Shown piece by piece: positions 32,006 through 63,204 of a stretch of 64,000 nt of DNA (the stretch's first letter is position 1; each line of letters opens with the position of its first letter). Source of the stretch: Incurvaria masculella (taxonomy: Eukaryota > Arthropoda > Insecta > Lepidoptera > Incurvariidae). The translations under genes were made by a program, and so were the position numbers. The stretch spans positions 9,000,001 to 9,064,000 of the forward strand of contig OX335665.1 of assembly GCA_946894095.1 (NCBI GenBank), given 5' to 3'. Below the pieces are notes generated by a model. The model saw only the letters and a program-made list of their open reading frames with translations. It ran no database searches and was not told the DNA's origin.

Positions 32006-33545
32006 TTAATTTTTTTTTTTTCGTGTAACATCTGCAATCAGTCCTTAGACTATAATCAGATTTGTTTTGAGGTATAAGGTCGTGAAGAGTGTGCCCCACA
32101 CTGGGAGCAGCTACTCTCTATAATTGTGAAGCTACTGCCGATTTTGTAGCTCCAGGATGTTGTGTCGTTTGAGCCTTTTGGGGTAGCCTTGGTGCGTCAG
32201 CTGAGCTGCCAGGACGTTGGGGTGATTAATCAGTCTTTTCTGATATGTGCTTGCAGTGGACCGAATTTAACAGTGTTAATTTGCAAATGTTCGTGGATCT
32301 CACTGTTGGTGACAAACCACGGAACATTTGCTATGGATCGATGGATTATGTTTTGCAGTCGTTGCAGCATAGCAATGTTGGAGTTACTGGCGCTTCCCCA
32401 AAGTTGTACACCGTACATCCATGCGGGTTTTAAAATACTTTGGTATATGAGCAACTTGTTGTCTGTGGATAGTTTACTGTTTCGTCCAAGCAGCCAGTGT
32501 AGGGTTCTGTAGCGTATATTCAGTTCTTCTCTCTTAGCCTTGATGTGAGCTTTCCATGTTAGTCGACGGTCGATGTGTAGGCCTAGGTACTTCACACTGT
32601 CGCTGTGGGGTAGCAAAGTATTTTCAAGGCATACTGGCGGACAGTTTCCTTTTCTGAGAGAAAACGTAACATGGACTGATTTGGTGGCACTAGCTTTTAT
32701 TTTCCAAGTTTGTAACCATTTTGTTATTTCGTCCAGTCCGTTTTGCAGTGTTTTTGAAGCAATTTTGGGATCTTTGTTGCTGGCAAGTATGGCTGTGTCA
32801 TCAGCGAATGTTGCAGTAGTGACGTCTGGCATTACTGGGAGATCTGCAGTGTAAATCGTGTACAGTATTGGTCCTAGAACCGATCCTTGGGGTACTCCTG
32901 CCTTGATTTCGTGGAATGGCGATATTGCTCCTGATTCCTTAACTTGGAACAGTCTCCCTGTGAGGTAAGATTGGAATATTTAAAAGTAACTGTGTGGTAG
33001 GTTTTGCTTAATTTTGCAGAGAAGTCCTTTGTGCCATACTTTATCAAAGGCCTGTTGAATATCAAGGAAGACTGAGGAACAGTATTCCTTTTGTTGCAGC
33101 GTTTTTCTTATCGTGTTACACACCCTGTAGACCTGTTCGACTGTTGAGTGGTTTTGCCTGAACCCAAACTGGTGGCTAGGAATAGTCTTATTCGCAGCCA
33201 AGACGGGCAGGATTCGGTGCAAAAGGGTTTTTTCGAACAACTTTGATAGAATTGGTAACAAGCTGATTGGTCTATAGGGATGTTACAATGTTTGCGGGTT
33301 TTCCAGTTTTATGTATCATGATGATCTGAGATACTTTCCACAAGTCGGGAAAGTGTTGCACCCTTAGGATACCATCAAACAGACTCGTTAGATAGACAAC
33401 GGCTTTTTTAGGAAGTTCTTTCAATACCTCCTTAGTAATAAGATCAAAGCCTGGCGCTTTTTTGTCATTGAGTTCCCTAATTAGCTTCTTGACCTTTTGT
33501 GGCGTGACTGGTCTATTCTTAATTAGAATCGATTCGATAATAAGA
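32006..33545 (-). pseudogene. Jockey-clade LINE, 5' truncated and frameshifted
   Basis: Three minus-strand frames read in order as a reverse transcriptase: KKAPGFDLITKEVLKELP (RT start), SKLFEKTLLHRILP, FLDIQQAFDKVWH (motif A, catalytic Asp), VPQGSVLGPIL (motif B) and FADDTAIL (motif C), then the C-terminal region ending IHRSIANVPWF. The order and the FADD box place it in the jockey clade. The endonuclease and ORF1 are missing, and breaks near 33265 and 32980-32830 make it inactive. The T-run at ~32008-32021 is the poly(A) tail on this strand. Confidence 0.85.
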
Positions 33546-40153: not shown

Positions 40154-40741
40154 GGCTCGCCGTGGGCGTAGATCGTAACTGTGAGTGGGGGCGGATCCGG
40201 AAATGTGTCTGGCTGCGGTCCGAACTTCAGACGACAGGCAATATGAGCTGACAATATCGTCGCCGATATTATCGTCTCGTTGGCCCCTTCTAAGTGGCTG
40301 AAGCACGGGGTTCCACATTGCAGAGAGCTTAAATGAGTCTTCTCGATTGAAGTTGCTGTGCTTCTTAATCTCGATAGCTTCTCGGACTAATCTTGGTATA
40401 GTTCGTTTTTCGGCGGCGATTATGCCAACCTGATCGAAACGTATCCAGTGATTTGGTCCTGATTCGCTATGCTCACACAAAGCTGACTTCGCGGAGTCCT
40501 TCTTCTTTACCGCTCGAATGTGTTCCGTAACCCGTGTCGCAACACTTCGCTTTGTTTGCCCAATATAATATTTCCCACAGGAACATGGAATTTTGTACAC
40601 GCCAGGAGACTGCAAGGGGAGCTGATCTTTCACTGAGCGTAAAACTTGTGAGACCTTTTTTATAGGTATGAAAACTGTATCAATCTGCAGTTTTTTCAGC
40701 TTACGCCCAATGATGTCTGTTACTCCCTTTACATATGGCAA
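40154..40741 (-). pseudogene. Penelope-like GIY-YIG endonuclease, 5' truncated
   Basis: 196 codons to a stop. After a short linker the GIY-YIG domain starts at GVYKIPCSCGKYYIGQTKRS, with the CxC spacing characteristic of the Penelope-type linker/endonuclease, then TRVTEHIRAVK, ALCEHSESGPNH and IPRLVREAIEIKKH (family helix with Arg and Glu). The C-terminal tail SYDLRPRRA is typical. The reverse transcriptase that should precede it is missing, so it is a remnant, but the endonuclease part has no stop. Confidence 0.8.
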
Positions 40742-41054
40742 GAAAGACGAAAGGCATTACATACGTTTCGATCAGGTTGGCATAATCGCCGCCGAAAAAC
40801 GAACTATACCAAGATTAGTCCGAGAAGCTATCGAGATTAAGAAGCACAGCAACTTCAATCGAGAAGACTCATTTAAGCTCTCTGCAATGTGGAACCCCGT
40901 GCTTCAGCCACTTAGAAGGGGCCAACGAGACGATAATATCGGCGACGATATTGTCAGCTCATATTGCCTGTCGTCTGAAGTTCGGACCGCAGCCAGACAC
41001 ATTTCCGGATCCGCCCCCACTCACAGTTACGATCTACGCCCACGGCGAGCCTAG
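40741..41054 (+). pseudogene. Inverted partial copy of the Penelope-like endonuclease C-terminus
   Basis: The plus-strand frame repeats the last ~100 residues of the minus-strand copy identically in translation (RFDQVGIIAAEKRTIPRLVR ... SYDLRPRRA). It starts inside the domain, after the GIY-YIG motif, so it has no catalytic N-terminal part. Confidence 0.8.
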
Positions 41055-41638: not shown

Positions 41639-43175
41639 TTAACCCCGTGTTACGATACGTACAAAGATGATATTAATTATAATAGGTTTTGAGACATTAT
41701 CGTCGAAATGTAACGTCAAATTGCTTTTAAAAATCAACCTGAGTATATTTTCCGCTATCTGTTGTGGTTTTTCTGCTTTTATTCGATCATCTTCTTTGGA
41801 TTCTGTCAGATAGTTCTTGTCTACTTCTTTACCATTGCTTTCTTTGGAGCTTGCGTCCTTGAATGATCTTCTATGTCCATTGGATTCGTGGGATGATGTA
41901 AGATGGACTGGATCCTTGTACTGAGCAGTTTTCTTATATTTGTCTGAATCAGTATAGTCAGCGGATGTTTCGATATTCTCTATAGATGTGACATGTCCAT
42001 GTATCTCTTCTAAAGTTTGTTCAGTTTTATTACCATCTGGTTTTGAGTTTTCGGTTCTGTTATACTTTGATGATTTCTTTAGGAGAGTTATGCGGTCATT
42101 CGGTGTTTCCATAGCTCGAAAACGGGACTTGCCGACTTTCCAGACTTCTTTGTCAGTCATATAGTAATTGGCTTCATTGGATTTGTCGGTGTTATCAGGC
42201 AAGTAATCTTTGATTTTAGAAATTTTCATTGTTAAATCTGAGTCATGTCTATCTGAAACTTCACTGATATTTTGTAAATGTATTTTCTTTTTCAATTTCT
42301 TCTTAGTTCTGATATTGGGATCCAATCCATCAGAGTATTCATGTTGATCCATTTCAGTATCCCTGTCTCTGGTTTCTTTCTTTTTAGGTTTCATGGTGGT
42401 TTTTGTTTCATGACGCACGCCCCAATCTGTTTCTGCATCTGATTCGCTTTCAGAAAATGAAACTTTTTCTTTTCTCTTTGACTTCTTAGTAGTTTTCGTT
42501 TCTGGGCCTATTGTTTTGAATACATTGTATGAATGTAGTGGCTTCTTCTTTCTGATAAGTTTTTCGTATGTTTTCGTGGTGACTTCCAATTCGGACAATA
42601 AAATGTCTGGAAATACATTAAAATGATTGTGACACTTCTTATCTCTACCTCTATGTACTTTCTCTCTAACAACATTTTTCTTATCATTCATGCTTTTGAG
42701 TATATGTTTTTGTTTAGGATAAATGCCAACTATTTTGTTTTGATGTGTTGTTATATTTCGAAGGATTTTATTTTCATGTATTTTGTTTATCTTTTTTGTG
42801 AATATTTTATTGCTTTTAGGACTATCCCTCTTCTTTTTTTGTTTTTTCATTGAGGATGAACGATAAACATTAGTTTTTTCAAAAACTCTCCCATTATTTA
42901 TAACTTTAATGTTGTTATTATTCAAAATTGTCACTAAATCTCTAACGAATGTGTTGTTTGGATGGAGCTGTATATGTTTGCAGTGTATGTCTACTTCTAG
43001 ATGTTCCTCGGCATGGTTTGGAAGTGTCCTTATCAATTGGAGTACGAACTTATTTCGGATCTTTCTGCTTCTTCTGATTTTGCTTTTCGCTTTGGCACTT
43101 CTAAAGTTTTTGTTCCTTTTCGTTTCCTTGTGTTCCAGATCAGTGGCACTCGCATGGATTGACCTCGATATTCGC
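41639..43175 (-). CDS. Unidentified Lys/Arg-rich protein, terminal exon
   Basis: Minus-strand exon with a very good acceptor (attacattatttacag|G, phase 2) and 511 further codons to TAA. The first part is basic (KSKIRRSRKIRNKFVLQLIR). A segment around FVLQLIRTLPNHAEEHLEVD and TFVRDLVTILNNNNIKVI looks folded. Then come ~400 residues rich in Lys, Glu, Ser and Thr with repeated KKKKR-type clusters. No known domain seen. The basic clusters suggest a nuclear protein, but this is inference. The ATG at 43201 is in the intron; the 5' exon(s) were not found. A GTACGT donor just before the stop could link to further exons. Confidence 0.6.
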
Positions 43176-44045
43176 CTGTAAATAATGTAATAAAGTTTCA
43201 TGTAAAGTTTATCGGACTAACTAGCTGCTTCCAGTTTCATCTTAAATTCTGTAATTACTAATCATTTTATTAATGCATTGTGAAAAATAACTATAGGAAC
43301 TATAAAGTTTAAAGGACACGAGGACTCTAGTCTCTAGACCAATTGTCTATGTCGAAACACAATGTTTAGTTAAAATTTTATAAGATATTTGATTAATGAC
43401 AAAGAATTTGGACTTTGTAATAAATATGAACTATTATAAAAAATTTTGGGCGCCAAATAATTCAAAAATAAATTATTATTTTGCAGCCATTCATTAGTGT
43501 AGTAAATTATGGATTAAGATAAAACTTAATATACAAGTAATTATGTTTAAGCGTTTTGTCCACATAGGCTAGCGACCAAAAAGGTCAGGTCCAACTTTCA
43601 CATTCAGAGCCAATATAGTAAGTAATGTTCTAATTCATAAATTGATTTTATTTCAAGCAAAATTATTGCAATGCCACATTTTACTAATAAGCCCAATATG
43701 TCCCAGAGGAATAGATAAATAAATAAAAAAATCATATTTAGTTAAACGGTTTACCACGTAGCATTAGTCAGTCGCTGGATACCATTTCAGTATCCCTGTC
43801 TCTATTTATTTATTTATTACGCTCTAAACCTCGGTTTACTGCGCGTTCTTTGTGTTGTTAGAGGCAATGTATTTTAACCATGAATATTATAAATGACAAT
43901 TTCAAGTGTAGTTTACTACCATATGACTGCTGATTTAAAATAAAAAATAAAAATTACCCTAAGACCGAACTTGGGATCCAGAAATGGCACCCGTGATGAG
44001 TGTTTGTTTTTTAAGGTTAAATGGAAAAGTAGAGTGAACATCAAA
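43176..44045. other. AT-rich spacer or intron
   Basis: No exon or repeat could be supported. It should hold the upstream intron of the gene at 41639-43175. Confidence 0.4.
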
Positions 44046-46177: not shown

Positions 46178-46346
46178 CGACCACCCCGAAGTTGTTCCCC
46201 TCCCCGTACTCCACCTCCCAGCGCTGGCTCTCGTCGCCGTCGCAGAGCCTCGCTCGCACCTTGTCGCCGGTTTCCAGACCGCGCACGTCCAGGCACAGCC
46301 CGGAGCTCGCGTGCTTCAGCTGTCTCGTGGGCAACAACTGCCACTC
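46178..46346 (-). CDS. GALNT-family transferase, lectin gamma-repeat exon
   Basis: Acceptor cgttcgccttcag|GAG (phase 0) and donor GTC G|GTGAGT (phase 1). It encodes EWQLLPTRQLKHASSGLCLD followed by VRGLETGDKVRARLCDGDES and QRWEVEYG. The CLD and QxW motifs mark the third repeat of the ricin-type lectin domain, which binds GalNAc on glycopeptides already modified. GC-rich, well conserved in style; high certainty that it belongs to the gene. Confidence 0.85.
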
Positions 46347-47372: not shown

Positions 47373-47499
47373 CTGCTCCCGTTTCTTGCCGTGACAATCC
47401 ATCATCGTAACCTCTCTTTCCGTTCGCTTGTCTACAATGCCGTCCTCTCTGTACATAACACGCTTGATAAATTCACAAAAATTGTTAACCCGAAACATG
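47373..47499 (-). CDS. GALNT-family transferase, lectin beta-repeat exon
   Basis: Acceptor actatatcag|C (phase 2) and donor GAG CAG|GTGAGA (phase 0). It encodes MFRVNNFCEFIKRVMYREDG and VTMMDCHGKKREQ, joining to EWQLL of the next exon to complete the Cys-His...QxW pattern of the second lectin repeat. Phase agreement on both sides. A SINE-free, AT-rich intron lies on its 5' side. Confidence 0.8.
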
Positions 47500-48408: not shown

Positions 48409-48570
48409 CTAGAGTAGCGTATCTCGGCGCACTTCTCCTCGGTGCGCAGCTCGCCGGAACGCGAGAGCACAAGGTACTGCGACGCGAGCAGCGTCGTGTG
48501 GCACCCGTACACGCCGAGTATGTTGCCCTGCAGCGTGTCCAGGCAGAGGTTGCCCACCAGATTGCGGAAC
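48409..48570 (-). CDS. GALNT-family transferase, lectin alpha-repeat exon
   Basis: Acceptor ggttcgccgcag|G (phase 2) and donor TCT AG|GTGAGA (phase 2). It encodes FRNLVGNLCLDTLQ, LGVYGCHTT and LSRSGELRTEEKCAEIRYS. The order CLD...GVYGCH...GELRTEEKCAE is the first repeat of the GALNT lectin domain. It is GC-rich and sits between two tandem-repeat arrays. In Drosophila pgant9, as I recall, the equivalent region is alternatively spliced; only one copy is visible here. Confidence 0.85.
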   Translation of the reverse strand, partial: VPQSGGQPLPGHAAGQHTRRVRVPHDAARVAVPCALAFRRAAHRGEVRRDTLL

Positions 48571-49656: not shown

Positions 49657-49793
49657 CTGCCGTAGCCGTGCACATCCCGAACGGGCACGAACTTGTCCCT
49701 GTACACGTTGTCGAGGTACCACTGGAAGCTCTTACACTTGAGTTTCTCGCGGAGGATCTTCCGGTGGGTCACGTCGCCGATCTTAGGGTTGTT
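49657..49793 (-). CDS. GALNT-family transferase, catalytic-to-lectin linker exon
   Basis: Acceptor cttccgcatag|AAC (phase 0) and donor GGC AG|GTGAGC (phase 2). It encodes [34 protein letters not shown] and [13 protein letters not shown](S/T)xRKxLRxxLxCKSFxWYLxNVY is a signature of the end of the GALNT catalytic region. Confidence 0.9.
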
Positions 49794-50084: not shown

Positions 50085-50812
50085 TTATTTATTTTTATTT
50101 ATTTATTTAGGAGGAAATACAGACACGAACAATAAAAGCAGTAACAATAACAAGTAATTAGAATTTGCTCGTATCCAAAGCTATTCCTCACTGATACATA
50201 AGAATACATTAAAGAAAAGGTAGTGCATGCGGAATTACAAACTAGGAACATACATGTAAATAGGAATAAGATATATAGTTGGTACATATGTTTGCTTACA
50301 ATAGCTTAAGATTTCTGACATTATATTTAAAAGTACGTGTGGAGTCGAAAAACAAAACTGAGTTAATCGTCTTTTCATTGTACAGCTGGCACATTCGTCT
50401 AACAGGATCTCTAACACCAGCATTTGTACGTACGTTACTAAGGTGGAATAATGCATTAAATCTAGTGCTTCTTAGCGGGACTCTAAAATCTATCAGTTCG
50501 AGAAGGCTAGGGGAGTCGATTATATTATTACAGATCTTATATAGAGTAACTAGATCAAGTTGAGAACGTCTTTCGAGAAGAGTACATATCTTATAGCAAT
50601 TGATCGTTTTGGCATATGAGCTTTTTGGGTCACTCAATCTATAGCTAAGACATCGCAGAATTTTTTTCTGTACACCCTCTAACTTACTTACATAAACTTC
50701 ATAAAGTGGATTCCAGACAACGGTGCAGAATTCCAGCTGGGATCGAACAAGTGTAAAATACAAAAGGAGATAAGTTTCAAGTTTGGCCAGAAGCAATCTC
50801 TCACAGCACAAA
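50085..50812 (-). pseudogene. CR1-like LINE ORF2 end, 5' truncated
   Basis: 171 open codons on the minus strand: LVRSQLEFCTVVWNPLYEVY and KLEGVQKKILRCLSYR (thumb region), ICNNIIDSPSLLELIDFRVP and GVRDPVRRMCQLYNE. This order is the C-terminal third of a non-LTR reverse transcriptase. The 3' end runs to a TTTATTTATTT-type tail at ~50088. The catalytic core is missing. Confidence 0.75.
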
Positions 50813-50849
50813 TAAAGGAAAACAACAACAACAATCGTTCATTATTACT

Positions 50850-51323: not shown

Positions 51324-51403
51324 CCGTAGGTCTGGCCGGTTTAGGTAGAAAAGTTCCGCATATTCGTCCATCCACACCTCGGCGAGACGCGCAGTGTTGA
51401 TAC
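51324..51403 (-). CDS. GALNT-family transferase, catalytic exon
   Basis: Acceptor atcgtgttcag|GT (phase 1) and donor CTA CGG|GTGAGT (phase 0). It encodes INTARLAEVWMDEYAELFYL and NRPDLR. xxRxAEVWMDEY is a strongly conserved GALNT catalytic-domain motif. Joins in phase to the exons at 53064 and 49657. Confidence 0.9.
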
Positions 51404-53063: not shown

Positions 53064-53159
53064 CATGAGTGTCCGAGTCACCGGGAAGTGCGTAAGGATG
53101 GAAACTCCTGAATACGTGGCCGACACGAGAACAAGGTATTATCTCTAGGGTTCCACCGC
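53064..53159 (-). CDS. GALNT-family transferase, catalytic exon
   Basis: Acceptor ctgatgttctttcag|GC (phase 1) and donor CAT G|GTATGT (phase 1). It encodes [20 protein letters not shown] and [11 protein letters not shown]. GGxLEIxPCSxVGHVFR is a family signature. The His in VGHVF lies in the active-site region. Confidence 0.92.
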
Positions 53160-53537: not shown

Positions 53538-53665
53538 ACTGCCACACGCGGAAGGACATCTCCAGGTTCTCGCCGCCCCACCCGTTCATCTGCTCGTCGT
53601 AGGCGCCCACCTCCCAGAAGTAGTTCCGGTTGATGGCGAACAGACCGCCGGCCATCGTCGGCGAC
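53538..53665 (-). CDS. GALNT-family transferase, catalytic exon
   Basis: Acceptor gtgcacgggcaag|G (phase 2; poor pyrimidine tract) and donor GTG TGG CAG T|GTGAGT (phase 1). It encodes [40 protein letters not shown] and WQ. The TMAGGLFAI and [17 protein letters not shown] motifs are among the most conserved in GALNTs (Gal/GalNAc-transferase motif). Confidence 0.93.
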
Positions 53666-54581: not shown

Positions 54582-54673
54582 CAAGTTGGAGAGACATCGC
54601 TGCCTCGGCGGCTCTTCTCTCGCTCCGGCACGTCGATCCAAGTGAAGTGGCCGGCGAAATTGAACCCTCCCAC
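54582..54673 (-). CDS. GALNT-family transferase, catalytic exon after the alternative pair
   Basis: Acceptor acctcacgttaaag|GTG (phase 0) and donor CCA ACT TG|GTGAGT (phase 2). It encodes VGGFNFAGHFTWIDVPEREK and SRRGSDVSPT. GGFxWxxHFxW is conserved in the family just after the segment encoded by exons A and B, so this is the common acceptor exon for both. Confidence 0.88.
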
Positions 54674-57377: not shown

Positions 57378-57735
57378 TTAGGGTTCCGTACCCAAAGGGT
57401 GAAAACGGAACCCTATTACTAAGCCTCCGCTGTCCGTCCGTCCGTCCGTCCGTCCGTCCGTCCGTCCGTCCGTCCGTCCGTCCGTCCGTCCGTCCGTCCG
57501 TCCGTCTGTCCGTCTGTCACAGGGCTGTATCTCAGTAACCGTAACAGGTAGACAGCTGAAATGTTCACAGATTGTGTATTTATTTTGCCGCTATAACAAC
57601 AAATAGGTAAGATTAAAAAAATATTAAAATTAAAGGGGGCTCCCATACGAAAAACGTCATTTTTTTGTTTTATTTTTTACGATGGTACGGAACCCTTCGT
57701 GTGCGAGTCCGACTCGCACTTGGCCGGTTTTTCCA
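57378..57735 (-). mobile_element. GGTTCCG-type MITE with long (CCGT)n
   Basis: tttttagggttccgtaccca and an uninterrupted ccgt run of about 20 units at ~57432-57507. Right end ggtacggaacccttcgtgtg cgagtccgactcgcacttgg. The best-preserved copy in the window. Confidence 0.8.
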
Positions 57736-58015: not shown

Positions 58016-58223
58016 CTGCGCATTTTTGACAGCGTCCAACTGAAACGTCGTCTGGTCTACGATGTCTATGACGGGACATACGACCGCGTCGCGCTTCTCC
58101 TTGACCCTCTGAAGCAGGGGTCGGAGCCAGTCCGGCGTCGTCTCGCAGTGGGCATCGAGAAATATCATGGTATCGGAGCGGGCGATACGCGCGCCTCTGA
58201 GGCGGGCCTTAATGAGACCGTTC
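58016..58223 (-). CDS. GALNT-family transferase, alternative catalytic exon B
   Basis: Acceptor acgaaactttccag|G (phase 2) joins RLEE-AG from exon 63045 to give Arg, then NGLIKARLRGARIARSDTMI, FLDAHCETTPDWLRPLLQRV and AVVCPVIDIVDQTTF. D-A-H is the DxH motif that binds manganese and UDP in all GALNTs. The last residues before the common exon differ from exon A (QLDAVKNAQ). The end is placed at CAG|GCAATG, a GC donor in phase 0; a weak GT alternative (GAC GCT|GTCAAA, also phase 0) would shorten it by five codons. About 31 of 60 aligned residues equal exon A. Confidence 0.8.
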
Positions 58224-58519
58224 CTGGAAAGTTTCGTTACAGGTGTTACATCCGTGCGGACCGTCCTCGCGGCGGTGGCGAATCGAGTGGGTGAGTGAAA
58301 CGGGTGATTCTGTAGACAAAACTAAGAATTATCTGTATCCAATTCTTTTGTTATCTCAAATACTATTGGTACAAAGTTGTGTGGACCCAATTGTGTTTTT
58401 TAGTCGGCGACAAATTTATATGCGCCTCGCGCGTACGATAAACGCTCTTGAGACAAGGGCATAGATAGCGTGACCATTTCTGTTTTAGCCCAAAACGAGA
58501 TACCGGCTTATTTACTCCC

Positions 58520-58745
58520 CTCGCTGCTATTAATTCAGCGCTCAGGAATCAAGAATCTTTCAGTCGAGAAAACAGCTTTTATCGCAGTGTCAAAGCGGAC
58601 TTCTCGACGGAAAAAATCCGCAGCAACTATATTTCAAGTAATCAACGTTTTCCGTTCCCAATCCATTCGACAACCACTATAAAAGCAGGTTTCTCCACGG
58701 AAACTGAAATATTCCTGATTCCTGCGCACGGAATTCCAAGAATGG
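58520..58745. mobile_element. MITE related to 13940-14270
   Basis: Inverted ends ctcaggaatcaagaatcttt cagtcgagaaaac (58540) and gaaatattcctgattcctgc gcacggaattcc (58705). Confidence 0.55.
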
Positions 58746-58944
58746 GCCTCCTGGCCGCGACCTTTTTCTTTGAGTCGATGCGTAACGAAGCCCCGGTCGA
58801 ATAATTTTTGCGCGGGTTGGAAAAACGGTACAATTTTGCGTCCCGAAGCTTCTTTCGGTCCCAAAGTATAAACAATAGATAAAAGTCCTTGCAGAATGTG
58901 CGGGATACACCATGAAAACCAAAATAAATTTACCAAAACACGCA

Positions 58945-59256
58945 CAAAATTTAAGAATCAATTGATTTAAAAGATTTGCATAAAAAGGATACCTGCAAAC
59001 TAAAATAAGGAATGAAACAACACAAGCTCAAAACATAGGACATATATATAATATTGGAAATCAATTGATTTAAAACCTTTGCAGAAAAAGTGTGCAGGAA
59101 ATCCCCTGAAAGGCGAAAGAAGAAATAAAACAAAACAAGCACTAAATGTAATGATATATCAATGGAAAACAAATCATTAAAACTCTTTGTTGAAAAAGTG
59201 TGCGGGAAACGACCTAAAACTTGGATGAATAAATACAACAACACAAGAAATTAATG

Positions 59257-59300
<44 letters not shown>

Positions 59301-59470
59301 CAATAGAAAACAAATTCATTGAAACTCTTAATTGGAAAAGTGTGCGGGAAACCCCCTGAAAGCCGAATGAAGAAATAAAACAACAAAGTATAAAATGTAA
59401 GGATATAACAATGAAAAACCACAATTAACTGAAACTCTTTGCTGAAGTATGCGGGAAACCCAATGAAAAC
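58945..59470. repeat. ~110-bp tandem repeat with an internal (AT)n tract
   Basis: About five units containing gtgtgcgggaaaccccctga, gaataaataaaacaacaca-like and aacaatagaaaacaaatcat. One junction has expanded to a pure TA run at ~59254-59299. It lies in the intron between exons A and B. Confidence 0.75.
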
Positions 59471-60583
59471 TCAATACAAACATTAAGCCTGGAGTTAATT
59501 ATGATTATTATAGATCTATCTACTTTCTTATTCAGGCGAAGAATAAGGATAGATATATTTATAATAAACATAACCAGATATGGTGCGCTCCACCCTAAGC
59601 ATTCCGAACACAAAACGATGTAACGTACACGTATAGTACACGAAACAATAAACTAAAAATGAACGTCGTCAGGGGCAGAAAAACAATTTTAAAAGACCAA
59701 ATAAATGTGCGACAAGGACTAAAAAGTCTAAATTAAATTGCACAATAAAACTACCATTCAAATACATTAAAATAACATAAAAAAGCAATAACAAGACTTG
59801 GTGGAGTGCGCGAAGCTAAGGTTAAAATAGGCGACTTCCCTCTTCAACCGTGATTTATCTGTTTGGATATGAACTTATTTCTTCGCTATTTAAAGTTAAT
59901 ATACCACTGTGGTAACAAAGCTTAGGGCTCGTACCCATAACGTTTGACCAATTTTTGACACTTTTGACCGGGGAGGGGGACCCCTTGTGACCTACTGTGA
60001 TATGTACCAATTTACCAATCCCAAATTTTTTTTATATAACCGAACGCACTCTGGGAAAAATGAAATTCACGCATCAGCTTTAAGCTGTTAGGGATATAAA
60101 TAAAATAATAATAGTAATAAATAGCCCCCCTTCTGCATTTTCACGTATTATTTTAAATACTATTTGATAGTGATTTCTTTATAAAGAAATGGCTATTATA
60201 TATTTCATAAATATTTGTGTTTTTCCTGTTGTGAAAGGTACAAAGGTACAAGTAAGTGAATCGGCAGGAAATGAAATGGTTTCACACTAGCATTTACGAC
60301 GAATATTATCCCCCTCAATCGGTCACGTAGTATGGGTACGAGCCCTTAGGTAATCCACGAAAACGATGTTTGAACTCCAAAGGAGCGTGGGTAATTATTG
60401 AGTGTGTAATACTGCTATGTGCATGTTTCCGCATCATAACACCAAAACAATTGAACATCAAGGGAGAATGTCGCAAATTTTAAACACCGCTAATAAAGCT
60501 CAAAGTAACAAAGGAGACAAACAATGTACAACGTGCATAGACTAAGTAGCGACCCGACAATGCGACCTCAATTGGAGAACGAC
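59471..60583 (-). other. GALNT intron between exons A and B, remainder
   Basis: Nothing recognised apart from short A/T-rich stretches. The whole A-B intron is 58224-60583 (2360 bp). Confidence 0.45.
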
Positions 60584-60794
60584 CTGGAAACCGTATCCCT
60601 GGGTGCTGTAGTGAAAGGTCCTTGATTCAATGACATCGATGATGGGCACGACCACGGCGGACGGCGAGTCCGAGATCCTCTGCAGAAGCGGTCGGAGCCA
60701 GTCCTCGTCCACTTCGCAGTGCGAGTCCAGGAAGACAAGGGCTTCGGCCGTCGCCGCCTTGGCGCCTTGAAGCCGCGCGCGCGTGAGGCCGATT
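60584..60794 (-). CDS. GALNT-family transferase, alternative catalytic exon A
   Basis: Acceptor accgccgtgccttttag|A (phase 2) gives Arg with exon 63045, then IGLTRARLQGAKAATAEALV, FLDSHCEVDEDWLRPLLQRI and AVVVPIIDVIESRTFHYST. D-S-H is the manganese/UDP-binding DxH motif; WLxPLLxRI and PxIDVI are standard. 70 full codons against 69 in exon B, same phases. The donor CAG|GTCGTT (phase 0) is weak. Joining A to B would read four codons and then TAA. A minisatellite begins ~9 bp upstream of the acceptor. Confidence 0.85.
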
Positions 60795-60802
60795 CTAAAA
60801 GG

Positions 60803-61445
60803 CACGGCGGTGTGAAGCGCGCTGTGAGACGTTTAAATCTGGCATATTTCATCCCGGCGAAGTGAGAATCTCGCAGTAGTGTGAAGCGCGCTGTGACATG
60901 TTTTTAATGTGGCATATTTATTCCCAGCAGAGTGATAATTTTTCAGTGGCGTGAAGCGCGCTGTGAGATGTTTAAGTCTGGCATATTTCATCCCAGCGGA
61001 GTGAGAATTTGCACGGTGGTGTGGAACGCGCTGTGAGATGTTTAAATCTGGCATATTTCATCCTAGCAGAGTGAGATTTTTTTGCAGTGGTGTGAAGCGC
61101 GGTGTGAGACGTTTAAATCTGCCACATTTCATCACAGCAGTGAGGATTTTGCAGTGGTGTGAAGCGCGCTGTGAGATGTTTAAATCTGGCAAATTTCATC
61201 ACAGAGTGAGAATTTTGCAGTAGTGTGAAGCACGCTGTGAGATGTTTAAGTCTGCCATATTTCATCACACCAGTGAGAATTTTGTAGCGGTGTGAAGCGC
61301 GGTGTGAGACGTTTTAGTCTGGTATATTTCACTCCAGCAGAGTGAGAATTTTGCACGGGTGCGTGAAGCGCGCTGTGAGATGTTTAAATATGGCATATTT
61401 TATCCCAGCAGTTTGAGAATTTTGTACGAGTTGCGTATGTGTGAA
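60803..61445. repeat. ~66-73-bp minisatellite abutting exon A
   Basis: About ten units of the type gtgtgaagcgcgctgtgaga tgtttaaatctggcatattt catcccagcagagtgagaat. The last unit overlaps the pyrimidine tract and probable branch-point region of exon A on the minus strand. A decayed unit is visible near 61857. Confidence 0.9.
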
Positions 61446-63044: not shown

Positions 63045-63204
63045 CTTTCTTCCAGTCTCACAATCTTTATCATATCCTTCGGCATTCTCGTGTCAACGTA
63101 GTAGTCCAACTTCCCTAACAGCTCCGGCAGATCGGAATGGTCGTCCACTAGGATGATCTCCTTCAGGTAGACGTACGGCGAGTTGGGGTCCTGGCCGGGA
63201 TAGC
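63045..63204 (-). CDS. GALNT-family transferase, first catalytic exon in the window
   Basis: Acceptor tcatgacttccag|GC (phase 1) and donor CTG GAA GAA AG|GTATTC (phase 2). It encodes YPGQDPNSPYVYLKEIILVD, DHSDLPELLGKLDYYVDTRM and IKIVRLEE. LKEIILVDDxSD is the start of the GT-A fold nucleotide-binding core. The linker before it (YPGQDPNSPYVY) is longer than I would expect for the family. The split Arg codon is completed equally by exon A (A) or B (G). Transmembrane anchor and stem must be encoded beyond 64000. Confidence 0.9.

Follow-up and report, generated by a model that had tools for sequence, protein, structure and literature searches.

Gene and exon layout

The window, a stretch of 64,000 nucleotides from Incurvaria masculella, carries on its minus strand a gene that is, by its predicted product, a lepidopteran GALNT1-like polypeptide GalNAc-transferase (family GT27), an enzyme that places the first sugar on mucin-like proteins. 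Relatives of this gene bear the name GalNAc-T 1; its fly homologues of that name are presumably pgant1. The gene starts outside the window, above its upper end, and extends down to the lectin exons at about 46178. Further upstream exons lie outside the window, with matches at L009 positions 5766-5683, 3355-3242, and 435-241.

Exon positions come from splice-site reading and from tblastn with six homologous proteins; all lie on the minus strand. The constitutive exon E1 (63045..63204), upstream of the switch that is the subject here, is 67-70% identical to the lepidopteran homologues P0132, P0001, and P0045, and ends in phase 2 with the donor AAG/GTATTC. Downstream of the switch, splice reading together with tblastn places the constitutive exons E3 (54582..54673, VGGFNFAGHFTWIDVPEREKSRRGSDVSPT) and E4 (53538..53665, SPTMAGGLF...). 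These are followed by constitutive E5 (53064..53159), which encodes both the third metal-ligand His (in CSRVGHVF) and the flexible-loop segment. Three more exons were located by tblastn, with their ends set by eye: E6 (51324..51403, INTARLAEVWMDEYAELFYLNRPDLR) and E7 (49657..49793), both constitutive; and E8 (48409..48570, FRNLVGNLCLDTLQ...EEKCAEIRYS), the single lectin alpha exon. A further lectin exon, E9 (46178..46346, approximate 3' end; EWQLLPTRQLKHASSGLCLDVRG...), was likewise found by tblastn. A small lectin exon is placed tentatively at 47373..47417 (approximate ends; REVTMMDCHGKKREQ), on tblastn matches of E 0.014-0.11 only.

A C-terminal ricin-type lectin domain is thus present: E8 and E9 match the lectin parts of the homologues in tblastn. 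PF00652 occurs in most of the best 120 of 5937 homologues. The window gene also shares a GYPGQD insert with P0001, P0006, P0045, and P0132.

With the six homologous proteins as tblastn queries (E up to 0.01), every exon except the pair described below maps to one place only in the window. The initial annotation had called all other exons single, and so are all those found. Elsewhere in the window, the open reading frames at 41642-43216, 40154-40756, 32398-32748, and 50299-50838 have no Pfam match. The first of these, on the minus strand, is an open frame of 525 codons that by eye is rich in Lys and Ser.

A duplicated exon pair held apart by reading frame

One segment of the catalytic domain is encoded twice. 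Exon A (60584..60794, minus strand, 211 nt) reads GLTRARL...FLDSHCE...PIIDVI...GYGFQ and ends at the donor CAG/GTCGTT. Exon B (58016..58223, minus strand, 208 nt) reads NGLIKARL...FLDAHCE...PVIDIV...KNAQ and ends at the donor CAG/GCAATG. The initial annotation had presented the two as diverged duplicates with about 31 of 60 residues identical, and with DSH in A and DAH in B. Both descriptions hold, and the count comes to 31 identical residues over the first 62 codons. Nucleotide differences between A and B number 22, 18, and 37 at codon positions 1, 2, and 3, respectively; this skew toward third positions is the pattern of constraint at the protein level. The GC content of A (0.63) and of B (0.59) compares with 0.37-0.38 in the three introns.

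Splice reading confirms that both exons are entered in phase 2 and left in phase 0, with E3 (at 54673) next. Each completes the codon that is split 2+1 across the E1 junction, giving AG/A or AG/G and hence Arg either way. Spliced in silico, E1+A+E3 and E1+B+E3 are in frame throughout. When A and B are spliced together the product reads ...GYGFQ-ERSH-stop, a stop after four codons; when neither is included the frame shifts. (Phases, stop, and frameshift had all been predicted correctly.) Single inclusion alone therefore keeps the frame. Thus, in the spliced products as read from the DNA, exclusivity is enforced at least by reading frame.

The pair stands alone in the window. In tblastn, A finds B at E 1.5e-21; the only other hits are two stretches at E 0.009. 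No third copy in the window emerged with 14 lepidopteran query segments of the A, B, and C types (next best E 0.009), and the C segment of Papilio (see below) found no counterpart there (best E 0.053).

The genome to which the window belongs (552 Mb, 31 contigs) provided a control. Twenty candidates were scored and 14 PF00535 matches obtained, among which A and B are the sole neighbouring pair over the same PF00535 stretch. At six other loci, a pattern search covering about 1.5 kb on each side found one DxH motif in four and none in two; given so short a flank per locus, the genome-wide list carries more weight.

Splice sites and possible regulation

The donor of exon B is GC instead of GT, and lacks G at +5. 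Donors match the consensus at six of nine positions in E1, A, and B; at seven in E3, E4, and E5; and, read by eye, at eight in E6, eight in E7, and seven in E8. Among the nine exons scored, E1, A, and B have the weakest donors. In relatives, the B copies stop at the same aligned residue, so the boundary assigned to B in the window is probably right.

What might enforce exclusivity beyond the reading frame? The distance between A and B is 2360 bases, which makes steric interference unlikely. An ungapped scan of the three introns for intron-intron pairing, of the docking/selector kind, found no pair above the highest of 20 shuffles. The best scores were 27.5 for introns 1-2, 33.5 for introns 2-3, and 37.0 for introns 1-3; the corresponding 20 shuffles each gave mean best scores of 30.1, 32.6, and 31.9, with highest values of 37.5, 38.0, and 38.5. 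The pairing of introns 1-3 is about two standard deviations up, yet within the shuffle range.

A 70-bp minisatellite (60809..61424, 8.9 copies, 81% match) ends 14 bp from the A acceptor, and makes up the presumed branch-point region of A. We speculate that it might affect the recognition of A. The intron following exon B contains a GTCC tetranucleotide microsatellite (57432-57518, 21.8 copies).

Copies in other Lepidoptera

The best 120 of 5937 protein matches, plus further searches, gave 155 proteins for comparison, clustered at 90% identity. Seven other lepidopteran rows are among them: Ostrinia, Spodoptera, Leptidea, Papilio, Plutella, Pectinophora, and P0001. Three protein models show an A-like copy immediately followed by a B-like one: Spodoptera P0004, Leptidea P0006, and Papilio P0132. 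These rows are gene models, not transcripts. Papilio machaon P0132 has three consecutive copies of the DxH segment, in the order C, A-like, B-like.

The remaining rows differ. Ostrinia nubilalis P0003 has A only, preceded by a foreign stretch of about 155 residues. (By our own reading this N-terminal stretch is reverse-transcriptase-like; the window at 32398-32748 resembles it, with 26% identity and E 1.9e-5.) P0001 has B alone, within an unbroken 592-residue open reading frame on a contig of 2143 nt. Because the gene has many introns, the simplest account of this contig, to judge from its lengths, is an mRNA in which E1, B, and E3 are spliced together and A is absent. Among the 155 proteins, none with a lepidopteran A copy came from a transcript-like contig, though clustering at 90% identity could hide one. 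Plutella xylostella P0044 has a truncated copy before an intact B; this copy reads FFDGGFE, without the metal-binding His, where FLDxHCE stands elsewhere, and is nearest to the A of Leptidea and Papilio (27 of 49 residues). Pectinophora P0045 has one divergent copy only.

The tally over the seven rows is therefore both copies intact in three, and one row each with A only, B only, a DxH-less copy plus B, and a divergent single copy. Conservation of both exons in other Lepidoptera, to which the initial annotation had looked, is seen in the three rows with the intact pair.

Age of the duplication

In a tree of the constitutive part downstream of the switch (29 rows), the window falls in a clade with the seven other lepidopteran rows (100/99) and outside those seven (93/95). 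The segment tree, built from 38 segments and 71 columns, is hence weakly resolved. Within it, one clade unites the six B copies (96/88), and the A copies group with fly and beetle forms, including single-copy ones (98/91). The data do not reject a single clade of the five A copies (p-AU 0.49). A single clade of lepidopteran A plus B is not favoured, and not clearly rejected (p-AU 0.056).

In the free tree, B and Papilio C sit closer to the forms of cricket and cockroach. Contrary to this placement, A, B, and Papilio C share Asp 232 and Arg 235 (GalNAc-T2 numbers, used throughout), residues found in 5 and in 1 (the cricket) of 25 other arthropod rows, respectively. The motif DW[LM]RPL follows the DxH position in 12 of the 155 proteins: the seven lepidopteran rows, the cricket, and four others. 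Its presence in the cricket and those four means that the mark is not unique. As far as these alignments can date it, duplication in the lepidopteran stem is more likely than an older origin with many losses. Under either dating, the sampled copies place B before the split of the window lineage from the other Lepidoptera sampled.

What differs between A and B

In 12 of 72 alignment columns, the five A copies and the six B copies have no state in common; one of these columns is a length gap. The discriminating positions before DxH are 205, 210, and 216; those around or after PxIDxI are 244, 246, 250, 258, 262, 263, 264, and 265. After about position 265, A and B differ in length by one or two residues. 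Position 263 is Tyr in all five A copies and Tyr (once Phe) in 25 other arthropod rows, but Leu (once Phe) in B. The Asp and His of DxH are invariant in 38 of 38 segment rows. The middle residue is Ala in all six B copies and also in two of the five A copies, so Ser versus Ala at this position does not mark A from B.

In GalNAc-T2 the metal ligands are Asp224, His226, and His359, and the acceptor groove includes Val255 and Leu270 (PMC4432651). The Mn ligands of the window gene are DSH (A) or DAH (B), along with the CSRVGHVF His in E5. As mapped by sequence alignment and not by coordinates, the equivalents of Val255 and Leu270 enclose or adjoin much of the A/B-specific stretch. Because the differences cluster by the acceptor groove and the metal ligands are the same, the switch should have a greater effect on the peptide side than on the metal side. 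The proposal in the initial annotation that the two enzymes have different active-site walls can thus be narrowed: the consistent differences are concentrated near the acceptor-peptide groove, and the metal ligands do not change.

Both forms score as members of the family. For the GT-A catalytic domain, PF00535 gives 77.6 bits with A and 83.2 with B, and PF02709 gives 40 bits in both, all above cut-offs; the PF00535 match is lost when the A/B segment is omitted. By sequence, the best solved relatives are GALNT1, PGANT9, and GALNT4 for the A form, and GALNT1, GALNT4, and GALNT12 for the B form. The GALNT1 score is 254.6 bits with A and 272.5 with B.

AlphaFold2 models of two relatives were also compared. 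The B-form relative P0001 has a mean pLDDT of 90.8, with segment blocks at 92-98; the top Foldseek matches of this model in the PDB are PGANT9, human T12, and human T4. The A-form relative P0003, with its foreign N-terminus, has a mean pLDDT of 79.1, and its segment blocks lie at 73-96. The predicted P0003 segment has the same main helices and strands as that of P0001, minus one short strand of the B form.

A proposed model for the exon switch

We think it probable that A and B are used in a mutually exclusive way, enforced by the reading frame, and that this exon pair tunes the choice of acceptor in a GALNT1-like GalNAc-transferase. Mutually exclusive use, as the initial annotation had it, finds support in the tandem homologous exons; their equal phases; the frame logic; the copies in other Lepidoptera; and the likely mRNA contig with B alone. 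The spliceosome would join E1 to A or to B, and then to E3. Mis-spliced RNAs, with both exons or neither, would presumably be lost to nonsense-mediated decay. Splicing factors may decide between A and B by way of their weak sites, the donor of B being GC.

Since the split Arg, the DxH ligands, and the remaining catalytic core are present in either isoform, both are probably active enzymes. The consistent A/B differences, most of them at about T2 244-265, flank groove residues, which makes acceptor preference the property most likely changed. From position alone, then, the most likely effect of the switch would be to change acceptor-peptide preference by tissue or stage. A resembles the fly and beetle forms, and B is the faster-changing duplicate.

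A broader scheme is possible, if doubtful. Lepidoptera may possess a cassette of two or three interchangeable catalytic modules (A, B, and the C of Papilio), so that the DxH core is chosen by splicing and B serves lineage-specific acceptors. In some species a module without the His, such as that of Plutella, may even give a non-catalytic, lectin-only isoform.

It is unlikely, in our judgment, that one exon of the window species is instead a fading, unused duplicate and that the other alone makes the enzyme. The candidate would most likely be B, whose GC donor with its poor +5 fits such decay. End branches in the segment tree (0.61 for B and 0.36 for A) exceed the 0.18 of the constitutive part, a comparison made over different column sets, and Plutella holds a copy without DxH. 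A disabling change in relatives was among the signs that the initial annotation had named as telling against the pair; the Plutella copy is such a change, though the Plutella gene is divergent. However, B in the window is open, keeps its DxH, and shares 47 of 68 residues with Leptidea B; the A/B differences are biased to third positions, as described above; and it is B that stands alone in the mRNA-like P0001.

Could A and B instead both be spliced into one long protein, as the back-to-back copies in the Spodoptera, Leptidea, and Papilio models (P0004, P0006, and P0132) would have it? This is very improbable. A plus B with homologous boundaries stops in the window, and the models need shifted junctions: an extra VRVR in Papilio, and a later start in Leptidea. 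The long protein would also have to fit two DxH modules into a single GT-A fold, and P0001 has one copy. This suggests that the gene models joining the copies are wrong.

Tandem duplicates can give such a picture in part of a locus, but that A and B come from two interleaved paralogous genes, or from an assembly duplication, is scarcely credible: the remaining exons each occur once in the window; only half of the residues of A and B agree; three other lepidopteran models have the two copies in this order as well; and no other same-stretch neighbours occur among the 14 genome-wide PF00535 matches.

Comparison with known systems

The family switches known earlier affect the lectin domain and, in a 2025 preprint, a flexible loop. 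Drosophila pgant9A and pgant9B arise by a switch between exons 8A and 8B and differ in acceptor preference (PMC6115407), in agreement with the statement in the initial annotation that lectin-domain exons of pgant9 are used alternatively. Like pgant9, the window gene has two versions of one exon; unlike it, the window gene does not switch the lectin alpha repeat, and its lectin alpha exon E8 is single.

The stretch that distinguishes Drosophila pgant5A from pgant5B, residues 398-457, belongs to the catalytic domain (PMC12776162, preprint Dec 2025). There, pgant5A predominates in salivary glands, and rescue and kinetics show that the acceptor choice of the two isoforms differs. The likeness to the window gene lies in alternative splicing within the catalytic domain of a GalNAc-T1-like enzyme, with tissue-biased isoforms in the case of pgant5. 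The switched parts differ, being a flexible gating loop plus helix I-II in pgant5 and the DxH segment in the window; the matching exons E5 and E6 are single in the window. Going by sequence names, the two are different genes, the fly homologues of the window gene being named GalNAc-T 1. The initial annotation had named no catalytic-core switch in this family. As to kind, one is already in print with pgant5, though for a segment other than that with DxH.

An alternative version of part of this catalytic segment is annotated in gene models of the crayfish Procambarus clarkii. Between GalNAc-T 1 models X1 and X3 (P0029 and P0081), the LLQR...GGF half of the same segment is swapped; the boundary of the swap differs within the segment, so its origin is probably separate. 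Between X1 and X2 (P0029 and P0035), the lectin alpha part is swapped instead. Both cases are NCBI gene models only. Taken as they stand, the models put two switches within one crustacean gene.

Mutually exclusive exon clusters have been catalogued for Drosophila and humans, and the window pair shares their general features: tandem, homologous, of near-equal length, and of equal phase. The sections of that literature covered here hold no entry for this gene, and the words GalNAc, pgant, and transferase are all absent from the main text of the Kassiopeia paper. No report of this lepidopteran exon pair was found in the open-licence literature searched. A human case, GALNT7 (PMC13039441), involves reduced inclusion of exon 6, not an exon pair, in the portion of the paper considered. 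Among Lepidoptera, a paper on the Plodia silk gland describes enrichment of Pgant5 in the middle silk gland; no Pgant5 splicing was found in the part of it consulted.

Catalytic-domain splicing is thus already known in kind, from pgant5, and the DxH-segment pair in Lepidoptera would add a further segment. With a switch of the exon for DxH and one groove flank, retained in several lepidopteran lineages, nature provides its own swap experiment, in which one gene puts two cores on the same scaffold. Acceptor choice by that groove flank becomes directly testable.
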